This document shows positions 24,601-33,369 of a stretch of DNA of 64,000 nucleotides, one piece after another. Position 1 is the first letter of the stretch. Every line of letters starts with the position of its first letter. Source of the stretch: Owenia fusiformis (taxonomy: Eukaryota > Annelida > Polychaeta > Sabellida > Oweniidae); NCBI GenBank assembly GCA_903813345.2, contig CAIIXF020000009.1, positions 29,364,740-29,428,739 of the forward strand. The letters are read 5' to 3'. A program made the translations under genes and the position numbers. The notes beneath the pieces are model-generated. The model was not told the DNA's origin. It made no database searches and saw only the letters and a list, made by a program, of their open reading frames with translations.

Positions 24601-27600
24601 AAATACCTGAATTCTCACCCTTGGATGTTGTTCATGAAACATACTTGATTTTCTCCCAGAATTAACTGAGAGTAAGACTCTCTAAAAGTTGTAATATTTG
24701 CACGCAATGCTGTATTTACGTAGTTAGATACTAACTGTTATTTATCTTGGCTTTAAAGTGCTGCATACTGCTTAACCTCTGAAGCTCTGAGGTTAACACG
24801 ATTTAGAGAAAGATTGAGACTTGTAGCCCTTAACAATTATTCTGTACAACTCATCTTGAACTGTCACTTTTGATTTTAATGCATTATCGCTTAGCTTATT
24901 TTTAGCTATATTCTTGTAAAATATTCAAATCTTGAAATTGTGAGCGTCCTAGCTTTGATTGCCTACGAGACAAGTTTGTTTCCACTTTGAAGAAATGAAA
25001 TAGTTGTTATGGTGATGAGATATGTTTTTCATTTGACCTTGAACTCGAAATATGACTCATGTCATGTGACCTTCAGCTATTGTCGATATGCTGACCCTAA
25101 TAGCTTTTCATCATTATTATCATATTAGTACTTTCATTTTACATTTTATTTTCGTTTGTTGTTGTTTTGTAGGATGGCAACTGCTAAAACAGCGTTCCTG
25201 CCTTTCATGTGCTGTGAGTGGGTGTCGGAAAACAGCCTTGTAGTAGCTGGGCACTCCTGCAATCCAATGCTGTTTCTTCATGATGACCGCGGACAAATGC
25301 AGTTCTTGCATAAACTGGATGTTGAGAAACAGTCTGAGGGTGGAAAGATCAAGTAAGTTCAAAAGGAGTTATCCATATCTTGCAGTGGATAACACTGATG
25401 ATTCAAGTCTCATATATATATATATATATATATACCTTCTGTATCTGACTTAGCATACTGTAGATACACTTAATTTGGCAGATTTGCTCAATTTCACAGA
25501 TTTGCTCAATATTGGCGGCTATTTAATGTGATGGATTCAGGACTGAATTTTAATTATTAATGTCACTTCAATGTGTATTTACCAAGATATTGTAAAGTTC
25601 TAATGTAGAATTTACATTTTGACCATTTTTGGGGGGAAAAATGAGGCACTGAAGCTTAATTCTGAAATTGCACTGCATGAAATGGATACTTGGAATTTTC
25701 CAAAATACAACTGAAAATTGGCAATCTGTCAAATTAAAACCATAGCCAAATTAAGTGTATATACGTTTTACACACAAAAGAATATGTTGCAATTGTATAA
25801 TATTAGTATGTGTCACTGTCAATAAAAAGAATATGCATTCTTGAATTGTCATCCTTTATTGAAAGATATTAAGTCCCAAATTTTGTCTCAATATTTTGAC
25901 CCCAGTATGACTTATATTCCATTCGCTTTCATTTTTGCAGCGCCATGAAGAGGTTCCAGATGATGGACAAGCAGGCGGATGAATCTGTTGACAAGAAGCT
26001 TGGTACAGTACATCAGAACAGTATCACAGGGATCTCTATTCATTCAGGCTCTAAGGCGTCCACGCAGAAGTTTGCTACTGTTGGCGTTGATGGTCAAATG
26101 TGTCTCTGGGACTTCAAGGTGAGAATATACATCATTTTATGTCACCACCAAAAGTGCACACCATGTTTCAAGTGAACTTTTAATGGCAGTTCATGTTTTC
26201 AGCACCAGATGTGCTGCAGTAGCAATTACTCTTCTTCACAGGCATAAGACTTAATTAATCCCTGTGCAGAGAGGCTATGTCTAGCCAGTAGTCAGTAATA
26301 AGATACTATGCAGTGATTATTTTAAGGCCAGTTACTATCACTATCAAAGTAATTAGCCTCTTCTCCACTGTCAAATGTGTGCACATCTTAAAGCTTTTAA
26401 CTATACTAAATTGTTTTAAAACAGGCCAGAATTATTATTTTAAACATGTTAGTCTGGGATTAGTATGGTATTGCTATAAACCCTTTGATTTTATCATGAA
26501 TGATGGACTTTTCCACATGCACATGTAATGATATTTACTTCATTTAGCATGCAGCATGGGCAAAATGTATTAATCTTTCTAAATAATGGCAAAGTACTGT
26601 TGTTCCTAATCTCTTGTTCTTATATCAAGTAATTATCATTGAGTTACAAAGTAGCAGCCTAGGTAACAAAAGGTTCAGAAATTAGTATTTCTCGGGGTAC
26701 AAAGCACTTGTTAGATACACCTGACAGAATTCAAGCTATGAAGTATCAATTTTATTAGATGGAAAGTCTTTTGTATCTATGTTTAATTTGATGAAAATTA
26801 CTTAAAACAGAATTTTAAACAGTCTTCATATGACTTTAACATTGTATGTTAAAATTTGAGAGAACATTACAGATTAAGTTTAAGAAACATCAAATTAAAC
26901 ACATATACAGCATATAAAACATATTTTGACTTACCAAACAGAAGTTATTCTAATAATTTCTTCACACAGCGGGGTGTTCTTTTATTTATTATTGGAGTAG
27001 CAGTTGTTATCTCAGGCTGGCAGGACAATAGGTGTTCTGAGAGAGTTGAAGCGAGTCTATTTACCTCATGCCGTATTCCACACATTCGACGATCCAGATG
27101 ATTGAAGACTTTATGGACAGCTTCAACACCCTGTTCTCCCCCAAGGCCCATGCCACATTTGTAAGTTTTTATCCATGGGACAATATGGTCCTCTAACAAA
27201 TGCTGTTTGGGGATAACTTTTATGTCCGGGAACTCTTTCCTATATATAGCCAGGTAATTGTCAATACTCAGCTGTATTGATTGAATTTGGGCTTCTTCGA
27301 TGCGCTCACAATGTCCAATGTAATTATGCACAATGGCAAAAGCTTCATTGATTTTGATCACTTTATTTTTTAATACATGGGCTTTGTCTAAAAGTTTGTC
27401 TTCACAACTCAAGGTGCTCGATAGTGAATGGGTTTTTCTGACAACCTCATTGGCCACATCCTCAATGACATCTCTTTTTAAATAACGACTCGCATGGTTG
27501 CCCTCAAACGCTCCACCAAAATAGGCCGCACGCTTGATATGATGTCTTTTGAGTACAACGTCCATTTCGGCTCCAATTGGTCCCTTGGTCGATTTTAGTT

Positions 27601-30600
27601 CCAATTCACTTTTTTCTTCTTTGATTTTTTCCTTAATTTCATTTTTTAATGTTTTGGAATTTGCACATTTCAGTTTTTTTTTGAGACAATGTATTTTTTC
27701 CCACTTTTCTACATATTCACCAAAGGGTGTATCCCTCTTATTATCTGGCAATCTATTGTCCTTGGCAATAGCACGACCCAAGGCACGGTCAATTTGATTA
27801 CAGCCTTTTAGAAGGATATTGTGATGCTTTAAAACAATTCCCAACAAAATATGTAAGTATGGAGGGCAAATCCGACTGATTTCTATGTCAAATAAAGGTT
27901 CGTTGATTACATTCATATAGTGTTTTGCCTTGGAAATATTACTTTCAGCTTCATCGATAAATTTATCATAATCACTTTTTAAAGTCATTTGTGATCTCTC
28001 TGTGATCCCGAGTGATTCTCTTTCTTTTCTAGGAATACTATATTGTGTATGACGAATATGACAATATAGACACGAGTAGGAACCAGATGGCCCAGATAAG
28101 CCCATTGCCTTCGTCAAGAAGTCATAGTCGCCACACATGAACAGCTTGATTTTTTTACCCCGCCATGTCATATTGTTAATCTGATCTATGTCTGGCTTAA
28201 ATCTCTTAAGAACTGTATCCAAATTATCCCTAGTATCCTTTGCTCTAAACATGGCAAAAACTAAGCAATTGTTTGTGTTATTGGGTGATGCAGTGTTTAT
28301 CACTTGTAGTGTCGTTTTGAAACTATTTCCTCCATGGTCTGCACCTAATTTTACCCATATTTCGTTTCTTGGAATAACTGGATGATCCAGACACTATGTT
28401 CTGAATTCCGACATCATGCTGAGGTGGTCTCCAAGGTACTTTGGCAGATTACTAATATAGGCCATTGGCAGTTTTTTATAAACCATTCCTTTCTTACTAT
28501 CTGGGGCGTTGGGATCTCTAGTTCTGAGAAGTTTTAGTTTGGCTTTTAGCTTTATCTTGCTCAGTAATTTCTTTTTATATTCCCTTTGTTTGTTTTGGCT
28601 TTCCATTTTTACATTAAATGAACGTAAAAACCTTGATATCTCCTTTAACTGTCCCCATGATATTTTAGCTTTTGTTTTCATGGCCATTATTTTGCGGGTA
28701 TTCATAACAGAGGGTTTTAATTTACATAAAAACTCCAAACGCTCCCTGGCCCTCTTTTTTCTCCGTTGAACAAGCCATTCTTTTGACAGCTGAGAGATTA
28801 ACGAATCACTGCCCTTGCCACTTATTTTTTCTCTTATTTTCTGTAGTTTTCTGGCTCGTTTTCTTTTCAATGGTGATGAGGCCTTATCACTGCCTACCCT
28901 TGGTTCTGGCACTAGGACAAATCTGAGGCACTGAAATTGTAGTTTTACTTATATCTGTTTTGGTATTCTTAATAAAATAAACAATCTTTATTTGTATACC
29001 CCCCTCCCACTCAACTAAAGAAAATACCTTGTAAGGGGTTGAAGCAATTAAGCATAGATAATTACAAGTACTATCTCAATGGGGATTAAGTGAATATCAC
29101 AATAAGATAATTACCTTTCCTCTTTTGTTGTTTACAATGAGCTCTTCAGGGTCATTATGGGCTTTTAATTTTCTTTTCACAAGGAATGTCAATAGCTGTT
29201 CTTCAAGTACAGATAATCTTTCATTAATAGGTTTCTTGAATAACTCCCTGATACTTTGATCACGGCCACGTCCAGGTGTCATACCCAGGTCAATACTCCT
29301 ATTAGTGGGCTTATTGGGTGTTTTCTGTTTTTTAGGGGTGCTTCTGTGTTGATCAGAAATGTCATTTTCATTAAAGCTAATTTCCGATGTATCCAATGCA
29401 ATTTCTGAATATTTTCTTTTGTTCGGCTTGAGACATTTATTGTCACTATAATTTATACATATTGCACACTTTTCTCTTGTGGCTTCTTTGGGATATATCC
29501 ATTTTTCATTTATGTTGGTGATTTTGTCCTTCAAATTTGAATTAAATACATCCTTATACTGATAATGTTTAGCACAATTGTAACACTTCTGGCATATGTT
29601 TGCAGGATGGTACAATGGATTGTCATTATCAAATTTCAATCCGGGAATAGCTTTTTGAATTGATTCTTGTACTTTTGTAATTGACAATGGCTTGTATTTC
29701 TTTCTATACACTGTTGTCTTTTCTCCACATAGTCTACATATCTTTTCTAAAGCCTTTTGATGATAACTGCTATGATCACTTGTATCCATTTTTGTCTGCG
29801 TGCATCCTTTACCGCATGTGTACTTCAAAATATTGATTTCAGTAAGGCATATTTGAAGCAGGATTTCAAGAAATCTGGCATATCAAGCACCCCCAGACCT
29901 GTTTATTCCTACAGGGGAGGGTCTTAACTTATATTTGGTACAATTTGCATACTGCTTGACATGCAGGAAATTTACTTATAAGGGGATAATGTTAATGGCC
30001 ATTAAGTTAATGAGAGATAGAGATAGATTTGATACTTCAAAGTTTGAACTTATATAACAAGATTCCCTGTCTACAGATGGGCTGCACACTTTATCTGGTT
30101 CAATTCCTGAGTATTGAGAGTATATAAATTGACAAACTAAGAGTTAAGGATCAAAGCAAAGATGTGTAATTGAGGCAGAAAGTGAAGCTATCTTTCCTAG
30201 CTACAGAGAGGAAGTAAGCAGGCTGCCATTTTGATGCTGCAGTTGCTAGCAGCAACAAGCTAATTAAATATTAAGTAGGCAGTATCATGTTTCTTTCTGC
30301 ATAGGGATTAAGTGATACATATGCTAAGGGGCTGGGGATGGTGTGAGTGTTTAATGGTCTCCATTTTTTGTGATGGCAGTTGGTGGTTGGTGTCTGTAAC
30401 AAATTCTTTCAACTTCCAATTACTTAACATTTAATACTGTTTAGACAGACTCAAATATCATCGACAAGTTCTCTGAAGTTCAAATCTGACTTTCAATGAT
30501 CAATTTTTTTCAAAGTCATCAAGTTCTCGGAAGTTCAAATCTGACTTAAAGTCCCCGATAAATCGGGCTACGTATACCGCCGTGTTTACATTAGGGGATT

Positions 30601-33369
30601 AGAAGAGTTTATTTTTTATTTAGGTATGCAAGCTATATCAATATCAGGCCTTCATTCATGTACTCGTGTGCATGTAATCAGCATGCCCTTCAATATTATG
30701 TAAACCAGGCTATTCAAGTACTACATAATGTACACTATTTATGTGTGTACTACATGGGAATACAATTCCCTGGGAAACAAAACACAAATACTTTTTATAT
30801 GTTTAAAATGAGCCATTTGATTGATGCATACACTAAATACCTTCATAAATAACATCTACAAAGTACATATATCTAATAGTAATGGTGAAACTTAGGCTTT
30901 GTATAAAAAACCTCCTACCCACGTACCCTCGTACCCACGTACGTGGGTCCTGACCCAGTCTTTAAAGAGTTAAATTTTTAAATGTTTAAAACATTATTCA
31001 ATCTCAGTTTATCCTGAATTATAGATGAATTTATGCATCCATATGCCTTTATTTATAGGTCTGACATCTCTCTAGTAAAATAAAATAAAGCCGGAATTGC
31101 ATAAATGTTCATTATTTTTGAGCTATTTGATTTATGTTTTTGATATGTCGAAATGTTTTTTGTTGATCGGGCAGTCTTACCTGTATAACACATCAGTGCT
31201 GATAAGCAATCTCCTAGCCTTCGTCCAGTGCAATCCGTGCCTCCTGTTACCTCATGCAGATTGTAAATGTCCCGGGATGTTTACCCTTGTCCAAAAGTTG
31301 ACATCTTTTTAAAAATATATTTCTTAGAGTTTCCAACCAATTAAATTCACCACATTTTATTAGATGTTTATTTCAAATGTTATTAGAATTCATTCTTACG
31401 AATATTATACGTTATTAACGTATGTTAGTCAAAGATTTGGTGTCGTTGTTGTCCATTGTATTCACGTTTTACACCGCAAAAAGCTAGAAACTACAAAGCT
31501 GAACTTTTATCATTCAAACCAGTTTTACATCAAATCATTGTCAAAATAAAACTCTACTCTTCATATTACCTAATTATGGATCACATGAATAATGTCGAAG
31601 TTTACAAAACCAAACTTACACTCCCCTGCATAAGTTTGGCAACTCTAACTTTTAATTCCATCTAAATGATTCACTGAACTAGTGCGCACAATTATCCTTA
31701 AATTGTGCCAAAAAGCGATTAAAAACGAATATAGCGAATCCTTCTACTTTTCAAATATTTCGTTATTCAATTGCGCCACGGTTAAACAGAAATGCAGCCT
31801 TTATTATTCCTTGAGATCGTGTGAATTGATCACTCTATCACTTTGTATCTCCAATTCTGATGTTAAATTAAATAAAAGACATAAGACAAATTACACGTAT
31901 AGTTTAAATCTGTCGTGCAAACAATGAATACTTGTAATATCGTTTGAAAGAATAAAAAGTATATGTGATAAAAATCGAAACTACAGGGTGTTAAAAAACA
32001 GGACCGATGAAAAGTTGAATAACTTCGTCAATCCAGAATCATCCAGGTCATTCAATGTGAATTTTGTTGTAAAAGTTTGACTATATTCTGCTCATGGAGT
32101 CAAAAACTACAGCACTTTACAACACATGCCCCATGTGGCCAATTTGCGCCAAGCAATAGATTGGTTGTACACTGTAAGACTGCCCGATCAACAAAAAATC
32201 GCTTCGATATATCAAAAACAACACTCAAATAGCTCAAATGAACATTATGCAATGCCGGCTTTATTTTATGACGAGACAGATGTCCGATCTACAAATAAAG
32301 GCATATGGGTACATAAATTCATCCATAATTAAGCATACATTGAGATAGAATAATGTTTAAAAAATGTTAAAGATTTAACTCTTTAAAGACTGGGTCAGGA
32401 CCCACGTACGTGGGTACGAGGGTACGTGGGTAGGAGGTTTTTTATACAAAGCCTGAAACTTACTTGGTTACGATTATACGGGGAATCAACACGGAATGAA
32501 GATTGTTCACCTTCCTGGCTTACCTCTGAAGCCTGTACCTGGTAATCTCTTTATATAGGTTAGCGAGAGTGGTGCGCCTGCGCATTTTTAAACTTTGGCG
32601 CACACTTTAAGATTGATCGATTATATTGTGAGCAACTAGGTGGTGACATTTTGTTGTGTTAATGCCTTGTTCGTATAGCAATACTACACCATTTTTATGT
32701 CACCACCACATTTTGTTAAAGTCTCCAACTTTTTGTGAATGGTGTTTGGCATCTGCAACAAATGGAAAGTGGTAATATTTTGTATGTTACTGCCTTATTT
32801 CCTGTTTTAAAAGTGTAACTTTTGTTATACATGAATGTCATATGTTATAATAAAAATCCTTGTTTCATATGATAAAAGTCATTGTGCTCTAAATATCCCT
32901 GTGTTATGAGAGTCACCATTCTATACAAGTCCCCATGCCATTAAAAATTGACAATAAAAGTTCCCATATTGCAAATGTATACATGCTTTAAAAGTTCCCA
33001 TATTGCAAATGTCAACATGCTTTAAAAGTCCCCATGTTGTAAATATCATGCTTTAAAAGTCCCCATGTTGTAAATGTCATGCTTATAAGTCCCCATGTAG
33101 TAAGTCATAATACAATAAAAGTCTATGTGTTGCAGAAGTCATCATGCTATAAAAGTTCCTATGTTGTAAAAAGTCATCATGAAAGTTCCCGTCGACACTC
33201 TAAAAAAGTCATCATGCAGTAAAGGTCCTATGTCATGAATATCCTTGTGTTAAAAGTCCTCATATCAAAATAACTAACCATGTTCCCATATAATAATAAT
33301 CATCTGAACAAGATTCTTATGTTATTTCAGACATTGGAGTCCTCTATTGCTGGCCTCAGACTGCAGTAA
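12688..33369 (+). CDS. ARPC1: Actin-related protein 2/3 complex subunit 1 (ARPC1), complete
   Basis: Coding exons are 12688-12754, 12942-13093, 13524-13629, 13953-14070, 14241-14300, 14604-14710, 16243-16345, 25173-25352, 25941-26118 and 33331-33369. They total 1,110 nt, or 369 codons plus TAA, matching the usual 370-372 aa of ARPC1A/B. All introns are GT-AG and phases agree. The start [18 protein letters not shown] fits the family; an acceptor at 12616-12617 shows the ATG exon begins with 5'UTR. WD40 blades are clear ([96 protein letters not shown]). The seven-blade propeller is a structural subunit of Arp2/3, which nucleates branched actin. The last exon codes only 12 residues and lies 7.2 kb downstream, beyond a transposon-filled intron. 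Introns 2-4 (13094-13523, 13630-13952, 14301-14603 among them) hold nothing recognisable. Confidence 0.97.
14780..16080. repeat. Interspersed repeat family B (gccatcttgcattctgg) in ARPC1 intron 6
   Basis: It starts ggtatgatatggtcgccagcttgacgggtgg, then has several degenerate units with agttctagagctgat, ggccatcttgcattctgg, gccatcttggaag and ttcaaattttcacacatgtt (14780-15225). A further unit is at 15970-16030 and a new start, aggtacgatattgt, at 16065. A similar start is at 63778. The segment between, 15235-15930, is AT-rich and unrelated, perhaps an insertion; I see no gene in it. Confidence 0.6.
17617..18600. repeat. 111-bp satellite, about nine copies
   Basis: The start atatgtgtataaatgt recurs at 17620, 17731, 17842, 17953, 18064, 18175, 18286, 18397 and 18508, exactly 111 bp apart. 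Diagnostic differences (tgttt versus tgtat, cacatg versus catatg, gagcta versus gagcca) show that copies 3-5 closely match copies 6-8, so a 333-bp trimer has duplicated. It lies in ARPC1 intron 7. I see no direct repeat/spacer pattern, so it is not a CRISPR array. Confidence 0.92.
19054..24642 (-). CDS. Probable type II membrane protein with BRICHOS-like ectodomain (partial, frameshift)
   Basis: Four minus-strand exons with GT/AG borders read in phase 0: 24642..24607 ([12 protein letters not shown]), 24332..24291 (ends YQEPYIQ), 20101..19958 and 19186..19054. The third encodes a short basic stretch (KKSERRCK), then about 25 hydrophobic residues ([18 protein letters not shown]), so a single-pass protein with the N-terminus inside. 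The fourth has [12 protein letters not shown] and, one base out of frame, [12 protein letters not shown]. The pattern (ETI-x-D...N-V...DF-x-K) resembles the start of BRICHOS domains. The single-base shift inside the last exon means pseudogene, polymorphism or sequence error. A later minus-strand stretch (16863 to about 16630, interrupted by TAG at 16776) may belong to it. The gene is antisense within ARPC1 intron 7. The BRICHOS call is tentative; the membrane exon is more secure. Confidence 0.45.
19752..19921. mobile_element. 170-bp pogo/Tigger-like MITE
   Basis: The ends are CAGTGAAACCTG and CAGGTTTTACTG, flanked by TA on both sides (19750-19751, 19922-19923). Interior phrases are shared with the degraded copy at 800-982. 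The ends resemble pogo-group Tc1/mariner elements. No coding capacity. Confidence 0.7.
20178..20835. repeat. Interspersed repeat family A, second copy
   Basis: It begins ttatcccaccacacaaattttgaggggaatatagagaagcc and ends ttgttcggtggtatttgctt...ttctctag. Internal ~130-bp units carry gataactcaaatac, ggttcaaatttt and atgcctaggga. It shows the form of the family A copy before LINE insertion at 7613. Confidence 0.7.
21402..23575. mobile_element. 2.17-kb element with TIR CATACCTGCCAACCT and ACCGTAAAA arrays, 5-bp TSD
   Basis: The ends CATACCTGCCAACCT and AGGTTGGCAGGTATG are inverted, and CCTTG flanks both (21397-21401, 23576-23580). Just inside each end are long degenerate arrays of about 20-25 bp built on ctaccgtaaaattttcaaaat (21415-21700 and 22845-23555). 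The middle (21700-22840) is unrelated and includes a short open frame at 21712-21951 of unknown meaning. Several frames stay open across the arrays by periodicity and are not genes. It lies in ARPC1 intron 7. Confidence 0.8.
23702..24039. mobile_element. 338-bp pogo-like MITE
   Basis: The ends CAGTAAAATCTACTAAGTGG and CCACTTACACAAGTTAGACTG are imperfect inverted repeats and TA flanks both sides (23700-23701, 24040-24041). The motif aagtgg(a)ac recurs inside. It is typical of pogo/Tigger-derived MITEs. It has no transposase. Confidence 0.7.
25412..25434. repeat. (TA)n microsatellite
   Basis: About eleven TA dinucleotides in ARPC1 intron 8. Confidence 0.9.
25467..25757. mobile_element. 291-bp TA-flanked MITE
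   Basis: The ends CACTTAATTTGGC and GCCAAATTAAGTG are perfect inverted repeats with TA on both sides (25465-25466, 25758-25759). It lies in ARPC1 intron 8. No coding capacity. Confidence 0.75.
26945..29789 (-). pseudogene. Transposase with RAG1-like N-terminal zinc region; one internal stop
   Basis: Exon 1 is 29789..29115 (225 codons) and exon 2 is 28930..26945. The 184-nt intron has a gtaatt donor and a tttcag acceptor in phase 0. Residues 18-111 follow the RAG1 N-terminal zinc-binding layout: KICRLCG (C18, C21), [10 protein letters not shown] (H61, C66, C69), H75, then W97 and CAIC (C108, C111), followed by a basic segment. Exon 2 has a basic linker and a transposase core: [10 protein letters not shown] (Asp ~423), CGDYDFL (Asp ~493), a Cys-x2-Cys finger (SGSYSCLYC), PPYLHILLG, and [10 protein letters not shown] (Glu ~824/828). 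These are the likely DDE residues. TAG at 28396..28394 interrupts the frame at codon ~404; the frame is otherwise open on both sides. The first ATG in frame is at 29789; upstream codons lack ATG. By family this cuts and pastes DNA. It resembles molluscan N-RAG-TP; assignment by memory of motifs only. Confidence 0.7.
26945..29828 (-). mobile_element. RAG1-N-terminus-like DNA transposon (N-RAG-TP-like), coding core
   Basis: Two coding exons of one transposon gene lie antisense in ARPC1 intron 9. I could not find terminal inverted repeats or a target duplication in the flanks (26119-26944 and 29829-30560), so the true borders are unknown and the copy may have lost its ends. The flanks are AT-rich; 30460-30555 has a ~50-bp phrase twice (aagttc-tcgg/ctg-aagttcaaatctgactt). 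No RAG2-like gene is visible. Confidence 0.7.
30566..30625. repeat. Fragment shared with the Penelope-like locus at 34575
   Basis: It shares ggctacgtata, gtttaca, ggattag and ttttttat phrases in the same order and direction with 34575-34632, so it is probably a remnant of the same element's end. Confidence 0.5.
30895..32453. mobile_element. 1.56-kb fold-back element, ~300-bp TIRs, 9-bp TSD
   Basis: The left end, beginning GGCTTTGTATAAAAAACC, and the right end are inverted copies over the first ~90 bp almost without mismatch. They continue with lower identity to about 31190 and 32150 (e.g. gatcgggcagtctta against its complement). TGAAACTTA flanks both sides exactly (30886-30894, 32454-32462). 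A 9-bp duplication fits Mutator-like or FB-type elements. The outer TIR has the self-complementary block cccacgtacgtggg. The centre is AT-rich with only short open frames and no transposase. It sits in ARPC1 intron 9. Confidence 0.85.
32860..33260. repeat. Degenerate ~40-bp repeat in ARPC1 intron 9
   Basis: Variants of aaaagtccccatgttgtaaatgtcatgctt recur about eight to ten times with drifting length. No coding signal. The last ARPC1 exon follows immediately. Confidence 0.6.

Follow-up and report, generated by a model that had tools for sequence, protein, structure and literature searches.

The locus and its features

This study concerns a 64,000-nucleotide stretch of the genome of the annelid Owenia fusiformis (GenBank assembly GCA_903813345.2, contig CAIIXF020000009.1, positions 29,364,740 to 29,428,739 of the forward strand), hereafter the window, and within it a transposon gene that lies inside the host gene ARPC1 and joins a RAG1-like zinc domain to a DDE transposase. 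The locus is almost certainly a young Chapaev DNA transposon that is now damaged by one stop codon, a grading that applies to the explanation as a whole, including the kinship of the zinc domain and the structure of the gene. The features are as follows.

26157 to 30345, minus strand: complete Chapaev transposon of 4,189 bp with 8-bp perfect terminal inverted repeats (CACACCAT...ATGGTGTG), its ends set by a 98.9%-identical copy, the exact repeats and the target-site duplication
26153 to 26156, no strand: left target-site duplication AGTG, an exact repeat flanking the element
30346 to 30349, no strand: right target-site duplication AGTG, an exact repeat flanking the element
29115 to 29789, minus strand: exon 1, 225 codons, with a zinc domain resembling Chapa and the central non-core domain (CND) of RAG1 in about the first 115 residues, followed by a linker; based on translation, donor site and RAG1 match
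28931 to 29114, minus strand: predicted intron of 184 bp, phase 0, GT...AG, with donor and acceptor positions conserved across loci
26945 to 28930, minus strand: exon 2, DDE transposase (DUF1280), with the stop codon at 26945-26947 and an in-frame TAG at 28394-28396
25941 to 26118, plus strand: exon of the host gene ARPC1 near its 3' end, matching Arp2/3 subunit 1A, with exon end and GT donor read from the sequence

The original prediction had placed a gene at 26945-29789. The gene itself stands, and the motifs reported for it were confirmed on the minus strand: those of exon 1 (29789-29115), CAIC among them, and GADHGG, CGDYDFL, CLYC and GGEQGVE in exon 2 (28930-26945). The real unit is larger and comprises the whole transposon from 26157 to 30345, and exon 2 is divided into two open pieces by the single in-frame TAG at 28394-28396, which had gone unmentioned. 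The donor of exon 1 reads GGAAAG-GTAATT, the hyphen marking the end of the exon.

Ends, target duplications and copies of the mobile unit

Searches were made in the window's own genome (498 Mb in 525 contigs, labelled G000), and the positions at which likeness between the window and a sister copy on contig C1 begins (26157) and stops (30345) set the ends of the element. This sister copy, found by DNA search, is 98.9% identical, lies at a different site, carries its own duplication (TAAC) and ends as the window copy does. A third copy on contig C3 is about 96% identical and in pieces. Three more copy pairs, 98.8, 99.6 and 99.7% alike (the pairs L030/L027, L031/L028 and L029/L026), represent further Chapaev families. 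CAC...GTG ends and exact 4-bp duplications were found in all eight copies of the four pairs, and the duplications all differ (AGTG, TAAC, TGGA, TAAT, CGAA, CATA, CTTA and ATTC). The perfect terminal inverted repeats of the four families are 8, 13, 16 and 16 bp long. Near-identical copies at different sites point to recent movement of all four. The window copy is probably not a source of transposase itself because of its stop codon, and copies with open frames are present elsewhere in the genome.

Kinship of the N-terminal zinc domain with RAG1

Two profiles were built from the N-termini of the window and 24 further loci (L001 to L024). The first contains 17 of the 25 sequences and leaves out L001 (same protein as the window), L002, L014, L017 and L020 (broken or partial), L016 and L018 (near-copies of L015) and L023 (a near-copy of L007). 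The second represents the window clade with eight of these 17 rows, chosen for their closeness to the window (L012 is distant; L011 and L021 were left out). Against 177,635 distinct PDB sequences, the 17-sequence profile finds RAG1 first: the fragment chain 21wb_A scores an E-value of 1e-10, full-length chains score 2.4e-8 over residues 97-229, and the next hit lies at 0.0086. In this match all three CxxC pairs align with C110/C113, C175/C178 and C210/C213 of mouse RAG1, and an upstream His is also included; the same pairs were mutated as possible zinc ligands, according to passages of PMC3124419. The window-clade profile also ranks RAG1 21wb_A first (1.3e-4), with the next hit at 0.076 and nothing else below 0.05, and hhalign aligns the 17 N-termini with the mouse RAG1 fragment at a probability of 96.3.

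PF12560 (RAG1_imp_bd) has four matches at E<=0.001 in the 498-Mb genome, and three of these have a transposase downstream: two lie just upstream of DUF1280 matches, and L014 lies upstream of a transposase recognised by tblastn (5e-25). No transposase was found in the stretch fetched around the fourth, L013. Used as the sole query, the window's first exon retrieves three of these four (4.9e-5, 5.2e-5 and 9.6e-4), and PF12560 recognises 10 of the 17 aligned N-termini at E<=1 (best 6.8e-10). Taken from sequence comparison, homology of the N-terminal region to the RAG1 central non-core domain (mouse residues about 97-229) is supported. The RAG1-like N-terminus of the original prediction thereby withstood the profile searches, which place RAG1 first in the PDB.

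Several results weigh against this explanation. The window-clade hit to 21wb_A adds up two stretches that fall short of significance by themselves (0.099 and 9.3), and full-length RAG1 chains are absent from the PDB list of that profile. Exon 1 of the window by itself has no PF12560 match at E<=10, and its single-sequence PDB search gives chance-level hits and no RAG1 chain. Pairwise BLASTP of exon 1 with the RAG1 fragment gives 2e-4, as a single comparison only. Single-sequence AlphaFold2 models were too poor to use (pLDDT 44.9 for residues 1-130 and 38.7 for a 482-residue transposase part). Short Cys-rich knuckles are common, and together with the shortfall of the window exon against PF12560 and the two weak stretches behind the window-clade hit, this would fit convergence, in which the N-terminus merely has a zinc-knuckle spacing like that of RAG1. 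Nevertheless, none of 10 shuffles of two N-termini in which each Cys and His was kept matches PF12560 or zf-AD at E<=1, RAG1 tops the PDB set for both profiles, and the 17-sequence match covers the three CxxC pairs and the upstream His. Convergence is therefore very improbable, and homology is the preferred reading of the domain.

Class of the transposon

The Pfam family DUF1280 (PF06918) is matched by the larger exon-2 piece of the window at 4.3e-11 and by exon 2 of the sister copy L001, which has no stop in its frame, at 1.9e-17; at least 39 DUF1280 matches are present in the genome. Passages of PMC3985635 assign DUF1280 to Chapaev transposases and group this family with RAG1 in a small clade of RNase H-like enzymes, and PMC4079192, in the passages concerned, characterises Chapaev by duplications of 3 to 4 bp, CAC...GTG termini and three motifs, C(2)C, LH and H(4)H. 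When 13 transposases of this genome are aligned (L003 and L011 being truncated, and L015 and L024 lacking the front part), C(2)C (C293/C296) and LH (L365-H366) are invariant in 13 of 13 sequences, and H-x4-H, i.e. H(4)H, is present in all 11 that extend there. Two acidic residues, the first in GADHGG and the second in CGDYDFL, are likewise unchanged in the 13, and the third would be the E of GGEQGVE. The DUF1280 core, the ends, the 4-bp duplications and the three motifs therefore make this element a Chapaev with 4-bp duplications. Chapaev3 was considered and rejected, as its duplications are 3-bp TWA and those found here are varied 4-bp sequences.

The original prediction had named Transib-like transposases as the source of the RAG1 core and assigned the element to the N-RAG-TP group; its class is corrected here to Chapaev, not Transib or RAG-like. 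A RAG-like (TransibSU or ProtoRAG) or Transib transposon, in direct lineage with vertebrate RAG1, would explain the RAG1-like N-terminus and also the C(2)C and H(4)H motifs, which are common to Transib, Chapaev and RAG1 (PMC12730594, as excerpted). Against this stand duplications of 4 rather than 5 bp in all eight copies examined and a core of the DUF1280 type. In addition, PF12940 (RAG1 core) has no match in the genome at E<=0.01, in a search in which no control matched either, and a PDB search with the profile of the 13 transposases brings up no RAG1. This last result argues against a RAG-like lineage and at the same time counts among the points against the present explanation. On balance a RAG-like or Transib identity is even less probable than convergence of the zinc domain.

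A RING finger after the Chapa domain marks two Chapaev subgroups only, and no RING family exceeded its cut-off in the six longer frames or the 17 N-termini scanned; a sub-threshold zf-UDP hit (0.088, in L004) falls inside the zinc domain. Single sequences of the window, searched against the PDB, returned chance-level hits only. Other weak Pfam hits, including DUF1660 for exon 1 and HTH_NDX for exon 2 (0.0011-0.0012), were judged to be chance or unproven because single members of the 17-sequence profile and shuffled controls likewise gave matches to unrelated families, at E-values as low as 0.0017 and 0.0021.

Predicted joining of the two exons in one protein

Across the 25 loci surveyed for splice sites (the window and L001 to L024), a donor GG(A/C)AA(G/A)-GT and an acceptor CAG- occur at the same place, both in phase 0, in 12: the window, L001, L005 to L012, L021 and L023. 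Window/L001 and L007/L023 are near-copies, and apart from the sister copy the first exons of these splice-conserved copies are only about 28-45% identical to that of the window. L003 has a variant splice arrangement, L002 carries a frameshift and retains the acceptor, both L004 and L014 are broken, and no exon 2 was found for L013 and L017 to L020 in the fetched stretches. In L015, L016, L022 and L024 one frame runs from the finger domain into the beginning of the exon-2 region, and L022 is a single intronless frame of 904 residues that contains zinc domain and transposase with no stop.

Genome-wide, for at least 26 of the 39 DUF1280 matches an exon-1 match lies under 3 kb upstream in the same orientation, where about 0.006 would be expected; downstream or on the opposite strand there is none for any of the 39. 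These pairing counts (39 DUF1280 matches, 47 exon-1 matches and 26 pairs) are lower bounds, because both genome searches score best candidates only. The N-termini of L022 and L024 are not among the 47 and the transposases of L015 and L016 are not among the 39, and tblastn shows all four as pairs.

On the other side of the balance, 13 of the 39 DUF1280 matches have no upstream exon-1 match, 16 of the 47 exon-1 matches have no DUF1280 match downstream, and the join is read from genomic copies. This last point would also be compatible with the RAG1-like exon and the transposase being two neighbouring genes, an idea that, given the shared splice position, the uninterrupted L022 frame and the genome-wide pairing on one strand, is the least credible of the alternatives and hardly tenable. 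That zinc domain and transposase form one predicted protein is thus supported, in line with the exon joining of the original prediction, by the conservation of splice sites and by the 904-residue frame.

RAG1-like N-terminal domains with no transposase in the fetched stretch were observed at L013 (G000:C12:7052616), L017, L018, L019 and L020. These could be truncated elements or solo domains, possibly used by the host. In exon 1 of L015, L016 and L018 (contigs C10, C2 and C3) the zinc domain is followed by a unit of about 22 residues (HNDDSSITSMDTTPEIVLHTSK) repeated in tandem, and this region differs between the three copies.

A possible link to the insect ZAD domain

The Pfam model of the insect ZAD domain, zf-AD (PF07776), recognises 14 of the 17 N-termini at E<=1 (best 2.9e-7) and exceeds its curated cut-off in L009 and L012. 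In the genome as a whole, zf-AD has three matches at E<=0.001 among 27 candidates scored, all above the curated cut-off, and all three are Chapaev N-termini (L009, L012 and L025), with no other among the matches listed. L025 has a broken transposase about 2 kb downstream. In the PDB, the next hit after RAG1 for the 17-sequence profile (0.0086) is 7po9, listed as LD30467p, which we take to be a ZAD-like chain; for the window-clade profile it reaches only 0.93. The likeness concerns the first half of the domain (CRxC ... P..(I/V)C..C), and the zf-AD match spans the first two CxxC pairs only.

The RAG1 fragment itself scores 0.0049 against zf-AD, under the cut-off, and this is not significant alone because it is within the range of chance hits in the controls. 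A direct link between RAG1 and ZAD is therefore weak and runs through Chapa. ZAD is known in front of C2H2 fingers rather than of a transposase (PMC8022714, abstract). In the literature that could be searched in full text, no paper dealing with both ZAD and RAG1 came up, and the passages of ZAD papers returned do not contain the word transposase. Perhaps the RAG1 central non-core domain, Chapa and insect ZAD are one homologous family of zinc domains, a tentative idea to which we give somewhat less than even chances. The link between ZAD and Chapa is a lead that was found in no paper.

Host gene and neighbouring sequence

The translated ARPC1 exon at 25941-26118 matches residues 297-359 of the 370 residues of Arp2/3 complex subunit 1A (9.5e-14), and as this exon is on the plus strand, the element sits in antisense orientation in the intron following it, close to the 3' end of ARPC1. 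The location inside ARPC1 was therefore correctly recognised in the original prediction. The list of open reading frames contains none above 95 residues in the interior of the element besides the transposase pieces, and no search aimed at RAG2 or kelch was made. Outside the element, the stretches at 31053-31280 (minus strand) and 32023-32332 (plus strand) have similar frames (ARSTKN...) in opposite orientation and are probably a dispersed repeat, as far as their letters indicate.

Proposed mechanism and meaning

Ends, duplications, gene structure by conservation, and conserved acidic and zinc-type residues are directly observed, and the following scheme would accommodate them. The element has one gene, and the transposase predicted from it combines a Chapa zinc domain at the N-terminus with a DDE catalytic core of DUF1280/CMC type (CACTA-Mirage-Chapaev). 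The core would cut at the CAC...GTG ends in the cut-and-paste manner of the family, and joining of the element to a 4-bp staggered target cut would leave the 4-bp duplications, which are themselves seen. By analogy with RAG1, the zinc domain may be a zinc-stabilised module that binds DNA or a partner; the RAG1 domain, in passages of PMC3124419, binds two zinc ions and shows zinc-dependent DNA binding without sequence preference.

Young, near-identical and differently placed Chapaev copies offer comparison material for the RAG1 non-core domain. In sequence searches with the elements of this genome the zinc domain finds RAG1 readily and the core does not, a contrast that bears on the choice between an ancient two-part ancestor and later acquisition of the domain. 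Later acquisition would give this contrast, and so would unequal rates of change. If the ZAD link were true, the vertebrate V(D)J recombinase and the insect ZAD zinc-finger factors would have one transposon-borne module in common.

Comparison with known systems

Kapitonov and Koonin (2015; PMC4411706) describe, in the passages concerned, the Chapa domain of Chapaev as the one that RAG1 and TransibSU carry at their N-terminus, and argue that an ancient common ancestor already had a Chapa domain fused to the core. The kinship between Chapa and RAG1 is thus already known, and the window element is a further Chapaev. The original prediction had suggested that the gene may inform how RAG1 gained its N-terminus; as the RAG1-like N-terminus of Chapaevs is in print as Chapa in these same passages, no new information on that origin follows from it. 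The Chapa assignment itself rests on the PF12560 and RAG1 matches, which are set beside the published domain by description. Panchin and Moroz (2008), according to passages of papers that cite them, reported Aplysia N-RAG-TP, a transposon encoding a protein like the RAG1 N-terminus. Kinship of the window element with N-RAG-TP, the two being compared by description only, is likely.

The closest likeness is to Chapaev itself, with which the element shares the DUF1280 core, the CAC...GTG ends, the 4-bp duplications and a zinc domain common with RAG1; nothing essential was found to differ, and the families described here are without a RING over cut-off in the frames scanned. Chapaev3 belongs to the same superfamily and has a Chapa domain, according to passages of PMC4411706, but its duplications are 3-bp TWA (PMC4079192, likewise in part) in contrast to the varied 4-bp duplications found here. 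TransibSU, RAG-like transposons and vertebrate RAG1 share the N-terminal Chapa/CND zinc domain with the window element, while TransibSU and RAG-like transposons are set apart by duplications of 5 bp, a core of Transib type and a RAG2 partner, where this Chapaev has 4-bp duplications and a DUF1280 core.

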